23,372 bases of DNA from a virus. The translations under genes were made by a program, and so were the position numbers. The notes beneath the pieces are model-generated. The model was not told the origin of the DNA, did no database searches, and was given only the letters and a program-made list of their open reading frames with translations. This document shows, piece after piece, positions 3,907 to 22,290 of this stretch. Numbering within the stretch: position 1 is the stretch's first letter; each line of letters starts with the position of its first letter. The DNA lies in the IMG/VR virus record IMGVR_UViG_3300020183_006139, positions 1-23,372 of that record, one strand, 5' to 3'.

Positions 3907-4648
3907 CTAGCACCAAGTAACTTTCCTTGCCCATGCCGTCACGACCTAGCACATCTACTTTGATTTCATCGTTGATGTACCACTCTTCTCGTGTGTGGTG
4001 ATGACCGCACACTACCTGACAAGGGGTAACTTTTTGTACGAGTTCGCTGATGAGCGCACGCTGTGACACGCTGACAGGAATCTCATCTTTGTACGAGATT
4101 TCCTTGCCAAGTGGTGCTTCGTGTGTTACCAAGATGTCCACTTGCTCGTCACTCACTTCGTCAATGTGAAACGGGTTGATGAGTTCGCCTCTCCACCACG
4201 ATTCGCCCTCTACGCGCTGTTTCCAATCCACGCTGTACGCACCGCCGTAGCCCATGAAGATTTGGTCTCCGATTTGGAAACGACAGCCTCGTGGAATCCA
4301 TTGACACCACTCGTTTGGTGTGTCAATAGGTGCTGAGTCACCGTACAGTTGTACGAGGTCGTGGAGTATGTCGTGGTTCTCGTGATTACCGTCTACCCAC
4401 AGGAACTTGATGTTGTTCTTCTCTGCGAGTGACGCAACCAAGTTCACGAACTTCTCGCCTCTCGGTATGTGTACCCAATAACCGAAGTCGCCACAAGCGA
4501 TGATGTGCGTACAGCCGTGCTTGCGTGCCTCTGCGAATACATACTTAGCGTGGTGTTCGTCGCCGTGTATGTCGCCCGCAAACAAGACACGCTGAGCGGT
4601 GTAGCCCTCGTGGTCTAGGTTCGGGATTATGTTTAGTAATGTTTCCAT
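3899..4648 (-). CDS. Calcineurin-like metallophosphatase
   Basis: Starting at ATG 4648, the 249-residue protein has the ordered metal-binding motifs of calcineurin-like phosphoesterases. These are GDIHG (residues 25-29), a following GDFG, GNHE, a TH (VTHEAP) and GHHHT near the C-terminus. The family hydrolyses phosphomono- or diesters with two metal ions; the phage substrate could be a nucleotide, nucleic acid or protein phosphate. A start 37 codons upstream is in frame but would run through the promoter; the ATG at 4648 sits 7 nt after a -10 box, which supports it. It heads a leftward operon with a hypothetical and an RHH protein. Confidence 0.88.
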   Translation of the reverse strand: METLLNIIPNLDHEGYTAQRVLFAGDIHGDEHHAKYVFAEARKHGCTHIIACGDFGYWVHIPRGEKFVNLVASLAEKNNIKFLWVDGNHENHDILHDLVQLYGDSAPIDTPNEWCQWIPRGCRFQIGDQIFMGYGGAYSVDWKQRVEGESWWRGELINPFHIDEVSDEQVDILVTHEAPLGKEISYKDEIPVSVSQRALISELVQKVTPCQVVCGHHHTREEWYINDEIKVDVLGRDGMGKESYLVLDV

Positions 4649-10779: not shown

Positions 10780-10795
10780 CTAGTGTTTGGGGGTG

Positions 10796-11470
10796 ATGGT
10801 TCAGTGTGTGGTGTCTGTTGTGCCTCACAGTTTTGGGGGGTCGGTTGATGGGTGTGTGAACGGTGTGGTTGATGTGTTTTCTGATGTGTGGGAACGGTTG
10901 TCTGTGGATGGTGTGGTGTGGTTGGCGGTTGATGATGTTGTTGGGGATGACGGGGTTTTGGGTTTGCCGTGGCGGGTTGGTTTCGGTTTGCAGAAGTGGG
11001 GTTGGTGGTTGCGTCAGGATGTGGTGTTGGTGTCGGAGGGGGTTGTTGATGGTGAGGTAGTTCGGTTGCATCGGTATTTGTTTTTGTTGTCTAAGGGGCG
11101 CGGCTATTTTTTTAATAGTTTGGCGATTTCTGAGCGTGCGAAAACGAAACCTGGGGCTACTTGGTTGGAGCGCAAAGCGGCGGGGGCTACGGCGGGGAAT
11201 GTGATTGTTGATGATGGTAGGCGTAATGGGACGCAGAGGGTGGTGCATGGGAAAGGTGTTTCTTCTAATTTGACGCGTCAGGATGGTTTGCGTAATCGGC
11301 GGTCGGTATGGTTTTTGGGTGGTGGTGGAGTGGGGTTGTCTGCTGATGCTGTGGATTTGTGTGTGAAGTCGGGTTCTCGGGTTGGGGATGTTGTGTGGGA
11401 TGTATTCGGGGTTGGTGACGTGGAGGGGGTTGTTGTTGGGTTGGGGCGGCGTTTCGTTTCAGGTTTTTAA
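10796..11470 (+). CDS. Degenerate DNA methyltransferase-like protein
   Basis: An ATG at 10796 gives 224 residues that align in order with the full-length methyltransferase at 20902. VQCVV matches IHCVV, and GLPWRVGFGLQKWGWWLRQD matches GIPWRVALALQQDGWFLRQD. YLFLLSKGRGYFF matches YIFLLTKKANYFF, LRNRRSVW matches FKNKRSVW, and DVFGVGDVEG matches DTFFGSGTTG. Both diagnostic sites are changed: TSPPY is replaced by SVVPH, and FGSGTT by FGVGDV. The WHKPNPMPES loop is also lost. It is therefore probably catalytically dead or repurposed, although the frame is intact. Composition is extremely GT-rich. It faces a leftward methyltransferase/nuclease operon. Confidence 0.65.
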   Translation: MVQCVVSVVPHSFGGSVDGCVNGVVDVFSDVWERLSVDGVVWLAVDDVVGDDGVLGLPWRVGFGLQKWGWWLRQDVVLVSEGVVDGEVVRLHRYLFLLSKGRGYFFNSLAISERAKTKPGATWLERKAAGATAGNVIVDDGRRNGTQRVVHGKGVSSNLTRQDGLRNRRSVWFLGGGGVGLSADAVDLCVKSGSRVGDVVWDVFGVGDVEGVVVGLGRRFVSGF

Positions 11471-11496: not shown

Positions 11497-12018
11497 CTAG
11501 ATTTTGGTGAGTTGGTGTTCTTTTAGTACGAGGCGCGGTCCGTGTCCGAAGTCGGCGTGTTCGGCGTTTGCGAAGAAGTTTTCGCGTGTGGTTCCGCCAA
11601 GTATTTGGAATTGTGTGTTCGTGCCGATGTTTTCTAGTTGTGTGGATGGTTGATTGCACCATACGACTAGGCATTGTTCTGTTTCGGGTTTCCATAGCCC
11701 GTAGTTGCAGTGCTTTGGGTCGTTGATGATGAGTATTTTGCGGGTTGAGGTTTTGATTTCTGTGCTTTTGCCGTTGATGGTGGTGTCGTGTCCGTGGTCT
11801 GCCCCGATGTAGATGTCCCAATCAACGGTGGTTCCGTAGTGGCGGGCGGTGATTACTTCTCCTGCTTTGCCCATCATGATGATGCCCTTGGGGGTCATGG
11901 TGGCGGTGTATTTGCGGTCGGTGACTTTGTGTTGGCGTTTGTTTTCGTAGCAGTCGTTGACCCATTTGCGTAGGTATATGACTTCTTTGGCGGTGAGACG
12001 CATTATCGGGTAGGTCAT
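11497..12018 (-). CDS. PD-(D/E)XK-type nuclease, possible restriction endonuclease
   Basis: The 173-residue protein starts at ATG 12018 in an ATGA overlap with the upstream gene. It shows the PD-(D/E)XK pattern: MGKAGEVITARHYG (E54 on a leading helix), an acidic residue at D78 in HGHDTTINGK, then E87-x-K89 in STEIKTST, followed by a hydrophobic strand, KILIIND. This fold is shared by restriction enzymes and by phage DNA-processing nucleases. Its place two genes downstream of a methyltransferase favours a restriction role. No recognised enzyme specificity can be assigned. It ends the operon, 26 bp from the convergent degenerate methyltransferase gene. Confidence 0.7.
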   Translation of the reverse strand: MTYPIMRLTAKEVIYLRKWVNDCYENKRQHKVTDRKYTATMTPKGIIMMGKAGEVITARHYGTTVDWDIYIGADHGHDTTINGKSTEIKTSTRKILIINDPKHCNYGLWKPETEQCLVVWCNQPSTQLENIGTNTQFQILGGTTRENFFANAEHADFGHGPRLVLKEHQLTKI

Positions 12019-12443
12019 TGTGGTTGGTCGTATTTCGGGTTGAGCATCATGTCCATTACTTCGTGTTGTTCAAGGATAAAGCCCTTGGCGGGGTTGTCGC
12101 TTTTGGGTGCAAAGTTTTGTTTGTTCTTTTCATTGAATCGTTCGGGGTGCGCCCGCATATAGCGTTTCATACGGGCGGTTTTTATCATGAGGAATGTACC
12201 GTCTAGGTGGTATTGGTAAACCCACCATTTCGCGGTGGTGATGTTGATGCCCGATTTTTTCCAACCTTCGTTGCGTGGATTTTGGTCGGTTTCTATGGCG
12301 ATTCTGCCGTTGCGGTAGCGGTCTGTTTTGATTTCTATTGAGCCGCTGTTGGCGTCATTGAGGAAATCGCGAATGATTTGTTCCCCGTTTTCTCCGTGTT
12401 GGAGGTCTTTCAAGAAGTTTGGTGGTATGTCGTATTCTCTCAT
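12015..12443 (-). CDS. Second PD-(D/E)XK-like nuclease
   Basis: The ATG at 12443 overlaps the methyltransferase stop as ATGA and gives 142 residues. It carries HGENGEQIIRDFL (E18/E21 helix), then D30 and E37-x-K39 in GSIEIKTDRYRNGRIAIE, an arrangement typical of compact PD-(D/E)XK enzymes. The following WKKSGINITTAKWWVYQY resembles the core strand/helix region in such nucleases. It differs clearly from the nuclease encoded immediately downstream, so the two could form a heteromeric endonuclease or act separately. Its position between a methyltransferase and another nuclease is the strongest clue to its role. Confidence 0.65.
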   Translation of the reverse strand: MREYDIPPNFLKDLQHGENGEQIIRDFLNDANSGSIEIKTDRYRNGRIAIETDQNPRNEGWKKSGINITTAKWWVYQYHLDGTFLMIKTARMKRYMRAHPERFNEKNKQNFAPKSDNPAKGFILEQHEVMDMMLNPKYDQPQ

Positions 12444-13177
12444 TGTCGTTCCATGTTTAGTTGAGCATCTTCAACATATCGGGGGTCTATGTCGTAGCCG
12501 ATGTATTTTCGTCCCAATCGTTTTGCTGTGGTGGTTGTTGTTCCGCTTCCGTTGAACGGGTCAAGCACGACATCACCAATTATGGTCGTGAGAAGAATGC
12601 AGTTCTCTACAAGTTGTTGGGGAAAGGGTGCAGGGTGAGTCGTTTGTTTTGGCGGTGCGATATTCCATATTTCGGTTATGTAATCAGGGTTCACATTTTC
12701 CCTGTGGGTGCGGGGTTTGTTTTTCGTCAACCAATACACATGTTCGGTGTTCGGCAGTAGATGGTCTTTACGAATATTTGGACTGTTGTGTCTATTCCAA
12801 ATTATGAGTTGATAGATTATTGCGTTCGTTTTATGTATGAACTCGGTTGGCAGTCGTGCTTGGTTGTTGTATCGTCGCGGTTTGTGGTTGAAAAAAATTG
12901 AGCCGTCACTTTTTATGACGCGAAGAAGTTGATTGATTACCGCAATTATCCATTCTTGATATTCTTCCTCTCGCATATTGTCGTGGTACGAGTTGTAGTC
13001 AATGTTGTGTTTCTGCCAAATCTGATTGCTGTTTTGTGTTCTGCCTTCCTGTATGCCTTTTTTGTTGTAGGGGGGTGATGTGACGACCGTGTTGATGGAT
13101 TCGTCGGGAAGTTTTCGCAGTTCACTGAGCGCTTCCGCGCACCTAATTATGTTGGTCTCAATATTTGCAGACGACAT
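12440..13177 (-). CDS. DNA N4/N6 methyltransferase (SPPY type)
   Basis: This 245-residue beta-class-like DNA methyltransferase has motif IV TSPPYN at residues 33-38 and the AdoMet motif DPFNGSGTT near residues 206-214, then YIGYDIDPRYVEDA. SPPY in this position is associated with N4-cytosine or N6-adenine methylation; the exact base cannot be assigned. The order (catalytic motif before the AdoMet motif) fits that class. It is the second gene of a leftward operon, 10 nt after a winged-helix-like gene and overlapping a PD-(D/E)XK-like gene by ATGA. That context suggests a restriction-modification cassette, or protection from host restriction. Confidence 0.9.
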   Translation of the reverse strand: MSSANIETNIIRCAEALSELRKLPDESINTVVTSPPYNKKGIQEGRTQNSNQIWQKHNIDYNSYHDNMREEEYQEWIIAVINQLLRVIKSDGSIFFNHKPRRYNNQARLPTEFIHKTNAIIYQLIIWNRHNSPNIRKDHLLPNTEHVYWLTKNKPRTHRENVNPDYITEIWNIAPPKQTTHPAPFPQQLVENCILLTTIIGDVVLDPFNGSGTTTTTAKRLGRKYIGYDIDPRYVEDAQLNMERQ

Positions 13178-13186
13178 TTCGTCCTG

Positions 13187-13215
13187 TTTATTTTGTAACG
13201 AATGGGACTGTGTTG
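13187..13215. repeat. TTTATTTTGT-N6-GGG motif copy
   Basis: TTTATTTTGT at 13187-13196 with GGGACTG at the same offset. Here it overlaps the last codons and stop of the winged-helix-like gene. Confidence 0.5.
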
Positions 13216-13631
13216 TTACTGCCGTTCAGGATGCTCTCCTCTTCCTTTTTCAATGATTTGTTGCGGGCATGAATTGCCGAAGCGGTTTGACTGTTTCCGT
13301 GGGGATTCATGATGGTGAAACGCTTATCCAACTCTCGTATCATTGCAAATCCGTCCTGAGTAATCCGCCATTGAATACCGTTGAAATGGCGTTCAAGGAA
13401 ACCCGACTTTGTGAGAGTGTTCGTATAATGTTTTATTTTGTTTCGGTCAATTTTTTCTAGTTGAAAGTCGTAGTACTCGGTTCTCGTGAACCACTCACCC
13501 TCTTTCATTCGTGTGCGCATGCGTGCGTAGCACAATACCATGTAGGAGCCGCGTCGTCCCCCCTTCGCCATGCCCGCGACCGTGTTGGCTTGCCAATCCG
13601 AATTTTCGGTGTTCATTTGGTTACTGCTCAT
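13188..13631 (-). CDS. Winged-helix-like protein, possible operon regulator
   Basis: Start ATG 13631 (147 residues) is chosen because TAGAAT ends 8 nt upstream; an ATG at 13652 would overlap the divergent gene's start. The middle (GEWFTRTEYYDFQLEKIDRNKIKHYTNTLTKSGFLERHF) followed by NGIQWRITQDGFAMIREL looks like a winged helix: helices, then a beta hairpin. The C-terminus is Lys/Glu-rich and polar. As the first gene before the methyltransferase and two nucleases it could be a controller protein, but its family is not recognised. Its stop contains the recurrent TTTATTTTGT motif. Confidence 0.6.
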   Translation of the reverse strand: MSSNQMNTENSDWQANTVAGMAKGGRRGSYMVLCYARMRTRMKEGEWFTRTEYYDFQLEKIDRNKIKHYTNTLTKSGFLERHFNGIQWRITQDGFAMIRELDKRFTIMNPHGNSQTASAIHARNKSLKKEEESILNGSNNTVPFVTK

Positions 13632-18540: not shown

Positions 18541-19371
18541 CTATGCGCTTGTAAAAGCGACCTTATCCTTCTGAGGGGAGCAAAACTCAGTAGTAATGAC
18601 GGGGTGGGTTGAAACCACACATTCCCTCTTATCGGGAAGTTGTTCTTTTACCATCAATCTCATCAACCATCTATCTGTTCCGTCATAGCGAGGCTGAAAA
18701 GGCTTCCTGCCGTGAGCAACTTGATGATTATCAATAATGAGAACATCACCATCTTCAAGAACAATTTCTTTTATATTCTCGTCAACTAATTTCTTAAAAC
18801 ATTCCAAAGCGGAATTCGCAACTTCGGTTTTCCCCCTCATCAGGTCTTCGTCAAAAATGAATCTAAACTTTTTGTGTTTGAAATTAATGACCGGCACCAA
18901 CCATTCATCGTATTGTTTTTTGTTTTCCTTGAAGGATAAGTCGGGTTGGATATAAAATTGGGGGCGCATCAACTCGTACATCAATCCGACATCTATATTT
19001 CTTAAGATGTCCCCAAAATTCACGTATGTGGTTGGAGCATTCTTATCTCCGCGTAAACACATCAAAATAAGAACATCTGGCTTATGCGGATGAAATGCTG
19101 TTTCTGTGTGCATTTTCAGCAATGCTTTGGAAGATGAAGAAATTTGTGCGAATTCCGTTTTGGGATTGGGAAGTACGTGTTGAATCAGGCGACCGTTCTG
19201 CTCCTGTTTGTAGGCGACAGGGAAACCATAATGAGCGCCGAACTTCAACAACAAATCGGATGCCTGTTTAACGATGTCATCGCTCATCGGTGGTATCAGC
19301 GGAGTCGCAGGAATCTGACCTATCTCAACGCCTTTGATTAGTGTTAGGGGTTCATTCGGTTCAATCGTCAT
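18541..19371 (-). CDS. AsnO/VioC-like Fe(II)/2-oxoglutarate dioxygenase
   Basis: From ATG 19371 the protein is 276 residues. It has HTE at 88-90 in KMHTETAFHPHKPDVLILMCLRGD, TTYV at 114-117, and the distal H220 in DNHQVAHGRKPF. R234 lies 14 residues later. The H-x-E...H...R spacing (132, then 14) fits the clavaminate-synthase/AsnO/VioC branch of the TauD superfamily, which beta-hydroxylates amino acids such as Asn or Arg. The substrate here is unknown. A longer start at 19485 would overlap the upstream gene and is unlikely; AGAAGG about 9 nt upstream supports the ATG. It ends a leftward operon with MazG. Confidence 0.85.
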   Translation of the reverse strand: MTIEPNEPLTLIKGVEIGQIPATPLIPPMSDDIVKQASDLLLKFGAHYGFPVAYKQEQNGRLIQHVLPNPKTEFAQISSSSKALLKMHTETAFHPHKPDVLILMCLRGDKNAPTTYVNFGDILRNIDVGLMYELMRPQFYIQPDLSFKENKKQYDEWLVPVINFKHKKFRFIFDEDLMRGKTEVANSALECFKKLVDENIKEIVLEDGDVLIIDNHQVAHGRKPFQPRYDGTDRWLMRLMVKEQLPDKRECVVSTHPVITTEFCSPQKDKVAFTSA

Positions 19372-19558
19372 CCCGTTTGCCTTCTCTGCGTTTTCGTTTC
19401 GGCGCAAGGTCGTGAGTTCTGAGTGGATGACCGTACGGCAAGCGGGTTCTCCGTTTTCCTGCTTTGGTTCCCGGCACTGTCTCATACTCTTTTGTTAAGT
19501 AATTGAAGCGTGTTCGTTGTTGTGCCCCACGAGAAACTTTCTTATTTTTCTTTCCCAT
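19361..19558 (-). CDS. Small highly basic protein
   Basis: A 65-residue product starts in a TAATG overlap with MazG. Nearly a third of residues are Lys or Arg (KKNKKVSRGAQQRTRF; TKAGKRRTRLPYG; PKRKRREGKRDDD). No domain is recognised; nucleic-acid binding is the obvious possibility. It overlaps the dioxygenase ATG by 11 nt. Confidence 0.6.
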   Translation of the reverse strand: MGKKNKKVSRGAQQRTRFNYLTKEYETVPGTKAGKRRTRLPYGHPLRTHDLAPKRKRREGKRDDD

Positions 19559-20893: not shown

Positions 20894-20909
20894 TTCCCCT
20901 GATGGGGAA
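20894..20909 (+). other. Hairpin enclosing the methyltransferase start codon
   Basis: TTCCCC (20894-20899) pairs with GGGGAA (20904-20909) around TGAT; the ATG (20902-20904) lies in the loop and first stem base. TTGCGT/TAGACT upstream (17-bp spacer) would start transcription near the 5' arm. Confidence 0.35.
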
Positions 20910-22290
20910 TGAAACTGTGGTGATTGACGAATTGCAGAATAATGCCGTCCAAGAACAGCCCCTTGTGCTCAACCCAAAAATTCTTTTGGGTGATGTTCGA
21001 GAATCTTTAAAAAGTATTCCCGATGGGTCGATTCATTGCGTAGTCACATCTCCTCCGTATTGGGGTTTGCGTGACTACGGCACAGGCAAATGGGAAGGCG
21101 GAGACCCTAATTGTTCGCACAAACGCGATAGTAAACAAAGCGACAAAACATCCACTGGTCAAAGGAATTTAGAAGGCGCAATCGGGGACGGTATTTATAA
21201 ATCCTATTGCCGTAGGTGTGGGGCAATCAGGATTGATAACCAACTTGGATTAGAACCAACATTTGATTCATATGTGGAAGATATGGTTGGCGTGTTCCGC
21301 GAAGTGCGGCGCATCCTCCGTGATGATGGCACTTTGTGGCTTAATTTGGGTGACTCGTATGCGGGAAGCAACGGTAACGGATGGAAACAAACCATTGCGT
21401 CCACAAATGCTTCCAATGCTGGTGGAGAGAATGAGGATTTTCGTTCCCGCATCGGGCGCGATGACGGCTATCTGAAACCCAAAGATTTGGTCGGCATCCC
21501 GTGGCGTGTTGCTTTGGCTCTACAGCAAGACGGATGGTTTTTGCGACAAGACATCATTTGGCACAAACCAAATCCGATGCCAGAGTCAGTAACAGACCGA
21601 TGCACCAAGGCACATGAATACATCTTCCTTCTGACAAAAAAGGCTAACTACTTCTTTGATTCGGAAGCAATCAAGGAGCCCGCAAAATATCCGCACGATA
21701 ATAGGGGTGCGAGGGCTGATAGTCGTAAAGAAGCAGGAATCCCTAATGCGATGCACGGGATGACGGGTGCGTTCAAAAACAAGCGGTCGGTGTGGACAAT
21801 AAACACAAAACCCTATAAGGAAGCACATTTCGCAGTATTCCCAACAGACCTAGTGGAACCGTGCATCAAAGCAGGCACAAGTGAAAAAGGTTGTTGCGCA
21901 TCATGTGGAACACCATGGGAAAGAATCGTTGATAGAAAAAGAATACGCAGAAACGAACTTCCCGAAGATGACCCCCGTTACCGTCCGAATATATACGAGG
22001 GAGAGTACGAAGAAATCAATGGCAAGGGCGACGCTGGTTTTGTAGAAACACAAACACTTGGTTGGGGCAAAGCGTGCGAGTGCGAAACTGACGAAACGGT
22101 GCCGTGCACAGTTCTTGACACATTCTTCGGTTCGGGAACAACTGGTGTTGTTGCGTTGCGTCTTGGGCGCGACTATCTCGGCTGTGAACTTAATTCAGAA
22201 TATGCAAAAATAGCGACAAAGCGTATAGCGGACGAAGAAGAAGAAATCAGAAAAGAAAAAGAAACGGAACAACTTAGTCTTTTTGAGTGA
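20902..22290 (+). CDS. DNA N4/N6 methyltransferase, full length
   Basis: The 462-residue phage-type DNA methyltransferase has TSPPYWGLRDYG at 49-60, GIPWRVALALQQDGWFLRQDIIWHKPNPMPES mid-protein, and DTFFGSGTT near residues 406-414 with YLGCELN after it. Cys pairs are inserted: CSHK...YCRRCG (about 72-112) and GCCASCGTPW...CEC (about 330-395), possibly zinc sites. The class methylates N4-C or N6-A; the target is unknown. It could protect phage DNA from host restriction or regulate genes. The degenerate ORF at 10796 looks like its paralogue. Its stop overlaps the convergent leftward gene by 17 nt. Confidence 0.92.
   Translation: MGNETVVIDELQNNAVQEQPLVLNPKILLGDVRESLKSIPDGSIHCVVTSPPYWGLRDYGTGKWEGGDPNCSHKRDSKQSDKTSTGQRNLEGAIGDGIYKSYCRRCGAIRIDNQLGLEPTFDSYVEDMVGVFREVRRILRDDGTLWLNLGDSYAGSNGNGWKQTIASTNASNAGGENEDFRSRIGRDDGYLKPKDLVGIPWRVALALQQDGWFLRQDIIWHKPNPMPESVTDRCTKAHEYIFLLTKKANYFFDSEAIKEPAKYPHDNRGARADSRKEAGIPNAMHGMTGAFKNKRSVWTINTKPYKEAHFAVFPTDLVEPCIKAGTSEKGCCASCGTPWERIVDRKRIRRNELPEDDPRYRPNIYEGEYEEINGKGDAGFVETQTLGWGKACECETDETVPCTVLDTFFGSGTTGVVALRLGRDYLGCELNSEYAKIATKRIADEEEEIRKEKETEQLSLFE

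Follow-up and report, generated by a model that had tools for sequence, protein, structure and literature searches.

Virus-encoded nucleases that attack host DNA include those of T4-type host DNA breakdown and the Chlorella virus restriction enzymes, and viral DNA is spared from them by base modification or methylation. The bacterial endonuclease PacI has an 8-bp site. It is a solitary endonuclease, tolerated since its host lacks that site (PMC3488263). Here, we describe an operon of a freshwater phage with two short nuclease-like genes, N1 and N2. Their products would share with PacI a restriction-type nuclease activity without a methyltransferase, in a carrier genome without the site, and with the T4-type and Chlorella virus enzymes the attack on host DNA by a virus-encoded protein while viral DNA is spared. 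In contrast to PacI, the carriers are viruses, the enzymes are predicted 4-bp cutters, and up to several hundred expected sites have been erased, repeatedly, in unrelated phages. In contrast to the viral nucleases, sparing is here apparently achieved by removal of the recognition word. A limited search of the open-access literature found no description of self-protection by recognition-word erasure in phages.

We consider it likely that N1 and N2 are solitary endonucleases specific for GATC and AGCT, respectively, and that erasure of these sites makes the phage immune to them. Somewhat less firmly, we propose that phages widely carry interchangeable solitary four-base endonucleases (N1 for GATC; N2 and a third family, N3, for AGCT), self-immune by word erasure. 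Similar phage enzymes probably exist for TCGA, GGCC, and GANTC.

Organization of the operon

The window, that is, the whole stretch of DNA analyzed, is the 23,372-base virus record IMGVR_UViG_3300020183_006139 (positions 1 to 23,372). The minus strand carries at 11497–13631 an operon of four open reading frames (ORFs) in the order wH-MT-N1-N2, and further methyltransferase-related genes lie on the plus strand:

13188–13631, minus strand: wH, small winged-helix-like protein, conserved part from near 13571
12440–13177, minus strand: MT, beta-type SPPY DNA methyltransferase, predicted N4-cytosine (Pfam N6_N4_Mtase, 6.5e-43)
12015–12443, minus strand: N1, predicted solitary GATC-specific endonuclease (phrog_13596; GATC absence)
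11497–12018, minus strand: N2, predicted solitary AGCT-specific PD-(D/E)XK endonuclease (fold model; AGCT absence)
10787–11470, plus strand: divergent methyltransferase-like ORF downstream of N2 (PADLOC MTase_II, 2e-17)
20902–22290, plus strand: MT2, second intact SPPY methyltransferase (Pfam, 6.1e-47)

An earlier note on this DNA had described a tight leftward packing of these four genes and had read them as a possible heteromeric restriction-modification (R-M) system. The packing was as described, with a 10-nt gap between the end of wH (13188) and the start of MT (13177) and ATGA overlaps at MT/N1 (12440–12443) and N1/N2 (12015–12018). The SPPY motif is present in MT as TSPPYN, and the putative catalytic motifs E37-I-K39 of N1 and E87-I-K89 of N2 are both present and invariant in the respective alignments. 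N1, N2, and MT are under purifying selection, with dN/dS of 0.08 to 0.15 against their closest relatives (0.09 to 0.11 for MT); for wH, the value was 0.39. The start of wH at 13631 is uncertain, as the conserved part starts only near 13571 and a divergent ORF on the plus strand overlaps with this one. The profile matches of wH were weak (Mrr_N, 0.02; LmuC, 0.001), and its homologs lie near the module, not invariably adjoining it. We regard wH as a possible regulator.

MT carries both the SPPY catalytic motif and the N6_N4_Mtase domain of beta-class N4-cytosine methyltransferases. Its best solved relative is a DNA cytosine-N4 methyltransferase (8s9m/8s9n, E 7e-57), of which 8s9m is, we assume, N4CMT of bdelloid rotifers. 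MT resembles N4CMT in being closest to a solved enzyme of this activity and differs from it in having no chromodomain and in being a phage gene beside nucleases. The rotifer N4CMT is reported to cluster with phage methyltransferases whose target is unknown (PMC8885841).

The ORF at 10787–11470 is a paralog of MT2, 28 to 32% identical to it, but has lost the SPPY motif, with VQCVVSVVPHSF at the corresponding alignment position. Constraint on its frame persists (dN/dS 0.21 relative to locus L009), and judging from the sequence, it may encode a catalytically dead yet maintained protein. It is not needed for the proposed nuclease function. Between 10500 and 13200, the plus strand is 61 to 75% G+T whatever the direction of the genes, with GC skew up to 0.59 and AT skew down to −0.48. 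Elsewhere in the window, a TauD/TfdA-type dioxygenase gene (18541–19485, minus strand; Pfam, 1.8e-15) lies close to a MazG gene.

Predicted folds and families of N1 and N2

The earlier note had described both short proteins as PD-(D/E)XK-like nucleases. For N2, the assignment is supported by the AlphaFold model (pLDDT 83), while for N1 the structural signal was much weaker. The N2 residues E54, D78, E87, and K89 are invariant in the alignment. The structures closest to the N2 model were those of the type II restriction endonucleases NhoI and Eco15I (8rpx, 8q5o, and 8q5m; Z 7.0 to 7.3 over 116 to 119 residues, 10 to 15% identity), and other matches included I-Ssp6803I, the Holliday resolvase Hjc, NaeI, and EcoRV. 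The best matches are PD-(D/E)XK enzymes and span Z 4.7 to 7.3 over 87 to 119 residues, all below 8. The model supports membership of N2 in the PD-(D/E)XK superfamily, with no single family preferable, since differences within Z 1 count as ties. The NhoI/Eco15I structures bind methylated DNA, whereas phages with N2 lose a plain word. A plain Foldseek search of N2 against the PDB gave nothing below E 0.8, a PDB sequence search gave no match, and none of the curated families reached threshold. In a library of predicted viral structures, N2 matched numerous similarly sized phage proteins, and two of these are labeled restriction endonuclease.

N1 matches phrog_13596 (1.3e-25), a family without known function, for which GATC specificity is newly proposed here. 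Its invariant residues are E21, E37-x-K39, and E51, and the order of the EXK motif departs from the textbook PD-(D/E)XK order. The N1 model (pLDDT 78) had its best match to Eco15I at Z 2.7, with weak matches to I-Ssp6803I and MutH (Z 2.0 to 2.2), and a PDB sequence search gave no match. MutH acts at GATC. The enzymes could accordingly be pictured as MutH-like, nicking or processing their words in replication or mismatch correction instead of introducing double-strand breaks, with the cost of the words at that step leading to their loss. We consider this improbable: the match to MutH does not rise above noise, no MutL-like partner was noticed, short of a systematic search, and the total word loss described below suggests lethal cutting. 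Profile comparison detected no homology between N1 and N2.

One viral scan yielded 539 relatives of N1, which makes the proposal a concrete function for a very common phage family. Neither N1 nor N2 had a relative in a pattern scan that covered 84,980 prokaryote species genomes, and searches of plasmids and annotated phages did not find N2. Within this scope, the two genes are phage-restricted.

N1, N2, and MT are separable

A type II or heteromeric R-M system, in which MT methylates the site cut by N1 and/or N2 and wH serves as the controller, would fit the tight operon with its ATGA overlaps. The closest relative beyond the record's own group (L010) keeps the order wH-MT-N1-N2, and MT adjoins N2 in most relatives with N2, including those with the reversed order, N2 before MT (L070, L071, and L119 to L121). 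The methyltransferase, which is conserved, the two different short nuclease-like genes, and the winged-helix-like gene are present as the earlier note had it. A heteromeric R-M unit is not supported, since N1, N2, and MT are found apart in many other relatives, and we rejected it as the main reading.

Most relatives carry N2 but no N1, with MT and N2 frequently directly adjacent and, in some cases, separated by homing-endonuclease-like ORFs or additional methyltransferases. L116 to L118 carry N2 and N1 but no MT, and the 37.5-kb contig of L116 is wholly without MT; the comparison sequences are largely fragments, so that a gene can often not be called missing with certainty. N1 is found without this methyltransferase in pelagiphages, in Puniceispirillum phage HMO-2011, and in a Roseobacter phage, and without both N2 and MT in many viral contigs and isolated pelagiphages. 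In HTVC109P, for instance, the gene order is DNA polymerase, N1, exonuclease. Thus, the endonuclease-methyltransferase linkage expected of a type II system does not hold: N1 usually lacks MT, and the MT-N2 linkage is common, not universal.

The candidate sites also argue against the R-M reading. No GATC or AGCT is left in the phage to methylate, so methylating these words could protect nothing, and an MT-only relative (L061) is depleted in neither. We therefore consider an R-M system unlikely. N1 and N2 instead resemble solitary endonucleases, in that no cognate methyltransferase is needed and the site is absent from the carrier; that each protein recognizes the absent word is what we infer.

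GATC is lost in phages with N1

Under a maximal-order Markov model, 82 GATC were expected in the record and none was found. Among isolated phage genomes with an N1 homolog (down to about one-third identity to the HTVC109P protein), GATC was zero in all 11, with 78 to 157 expected in each; these isolates are Pelagibacter, Puniceispirillum, Roseobacter, and unassigned phages. In contrast, five related phages without N1 showed near-normal counts, from 60 of 101 to 227 of 276 expected. The association between N1 and GATC absence in the isolates gave a Fisher p of 2e-4, a statistic that ignores relatedness.

The same pattern was seen in environmental sequences. The 83 pooled IMG/VR loci with N1 contained a single GATC against 3,804 expected, while the next-lowest 4-mer was ACGT at 0.39 of expectation; in the subset retaining AGCT, the lowest word other than GATC stood at 0.64. 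Grouped with the isolates (99 sequences), these loci make up 13 mutually unalignable DNA clusters, of which 12 were wholly GATC-free and one had a single site; loci of one cluster are related to each other. The two words were also lost independently: contig G003, with N1 but no N2, had 0 of 268 GATC and 317 of 425 AGCT, and G039, with neither gene, had 526 GATC against 501 expected and 145 of 220 AGCT.

The sole GATC of the pooled loci lies at position 10329 of L282, about 520 bases from a contig end, at the center of GTGTCACCCGATCGGGTGACAC, a perfect 22-bp palindrome. The palindrome could fold into a hairpin whose loop is GATC. In the only GATC-rich contig with N1, L373, none of the 21 sites lies beyond 3866, and the final 1,979 bases, which carry N1, are GATC-free. 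It is 99.5% identical to L374 and L375 up to base 4118 and then diverges; its sequence thus points to a probable assembly chimera or very recent recombinant. Missing words can, as in this case, expose chimeric contigs. Conversely, GATC was also zero in some fragments without detected N1 (G022, G034, and G046). L070, likewise GATC-free without N1, is explained by a longer contig of the same region, G056, which carries N1.

The words missing from these phages could reflect R-M systems of their hosts, with N1, N2, and N3 being repair or recombination nucleases that merely happen to be carried by these phages. Avoidance of host R-M sites is common among phages (PMC6286503), and recombination genes are often found close to N1 (RusA in L116; a Holliday-junction-resolvase-like ORF in L016). 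However, phages that share a host and differ in the presence of N1 are completely unlike each other in GATC: CRP-143 and CRP-118 on FZCC0023, HTVC109P and HTVC119P on HTCC7211, and HTVC011P and HTVC010P on HTCC1062. In addition, no R-M systems were reported in the SAR11 genomes examined (PMC9516812). Host-driven avoidance is therefore inadequate. In unrelated phages and in different environments alike, the word lost tracks the gene, and the loss is total rather than partial. Together, these observations leave the host-driven explanation with little probability. We regard the assignment of GATC to N1 as strong.

In the primase gene, GATC of a relative is replaced in the record by synonymous codons at five of nine comparable places (for example, GATCTT to GACCTT).

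AGCT is lost in phages with N2 or N3

AGCT is likewise absent from the record (0 versus 46 expected) and from 35 of 35 loci with N2 (0 versus 1,328 expected; the next word, GGCC, at 0.05), which represent only two DNA-level clusters. Two long contigs with N2 but no N1 separate the words clearly: G010 (138 kb) has 0 of 362 AGCT and 518 of 552 GATC, and G059 (145 kb) has 0 of 380 and 457 of 528, respectively. G056, which carries N1 and N2, is without GATC and AGCT.

In two relatives, L042 and L063, a different gene family, N3, with conserved E56, D85, and E91-x-R/K, follows MT in place of N2. Members of this family lie at:

L042, 1497–1988: N3, nuclease-like phage gene, downstream of MT
L063, 7029–7529: N3, nuclease-like phage gene, downstream of MT
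L307, 10617–11102: N3, nuclease-like phage gene

N2 and N3 thus alternate after MT and share the same missing word, and profiles detected no homology between them. A scan found 201 viral relatives of N3. In 79 N3 loci from 11 clusters, AGCT was absent (0 versus 2,318 expected), with the next palindrome at 0.50, and in the 38 loci in which all other palindromes are present, the count was 0 of 1,014. In the 78.8-kb contig G021, where N3 lies between primase-helicase-like and terminase-like genes, AGCT is the sole absent palindrome. N3 is the cleanest AGCT case among the gene-word pairs.

AGCT was also zero in some phages in which we found no N2 and no N3 (fragments G028, G022, and G034, and G029, covering 80 of 86 kb), which implies that other causes or enzymes for AGCT loss exist. 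Because of these phages and the two DNA-level clusters, we hold the assignment of AGCT to N2 with moderate confidence, as the best but not a proven one.

Proposed mechanism and meaning

We propose that N1 and N2 work independently and without a cognate methyltransferase, with N1 reading GATC and N2 reading AGCT. The targets would be the host chromosome and/or competing phage DNA, and the resulting fragments could feed the exonuclease and nucleotide-recycling genes of the phage; exonuclease and ribonucleotide reductase genes are present in these phages. Self-immunity would have arisen by removal of every copy of each word from the phage genome, largely through synonymous changes, and since no site is left to methylate, protection would be by site absence rather than by modification. 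MT, a frequent but not required neighbor of N2, would not protect GATC or AGCT, as the phage has none of these sites; protection of different sequences against different nucleases is its more likely role.

If this is true, the words completely missing from a phage reveal which sequences its own nucleases recognize, and the enzymes are new small four-base cutters. The depletion of words in phages of hosts that lack restriction systems could also be explained in this way. One such case is the reported depletion of GANTC in pelagiphages despite the lack of R-M systems in the SAR11 genomes examined (PMC9516812), to which the proposal offers a route.

Other avoided words

Several words are strongly but incompletely avoided in the record (observed/expected): TCGA 3/115, GGCC 3/53, ACGT 8/113, and CCGG 10/79. 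We considered TCGA as the target of the methyltransferase and rejected it, since its loss is independent of the operon (0.54 in L010 and 0.79 in L070). TCGA is absent from G010 and G059, the contigs of L041 and L059 (0/438 and 0/401), despite normal GATC, and this pattern suggests a further, TCGA-specific enzyme.

Five pelagiphages (L137, L130, L358, L359, and L134) have GANTC counts of 0/96, 1/100, 2/83, 3/95, and 12/101, respectively. The N1 of all five belongs to a subtype whose pattern is E[VIC]K.D and then TGN[VF], and either this subtype or another phage gene may recognize GANTC. Last, Roseobacter phage CRP-804 (L132) has 0/118 GTAC and 1/96 CCGG, with other palindromes ordinary, and is a candidate for another gene-word pair.
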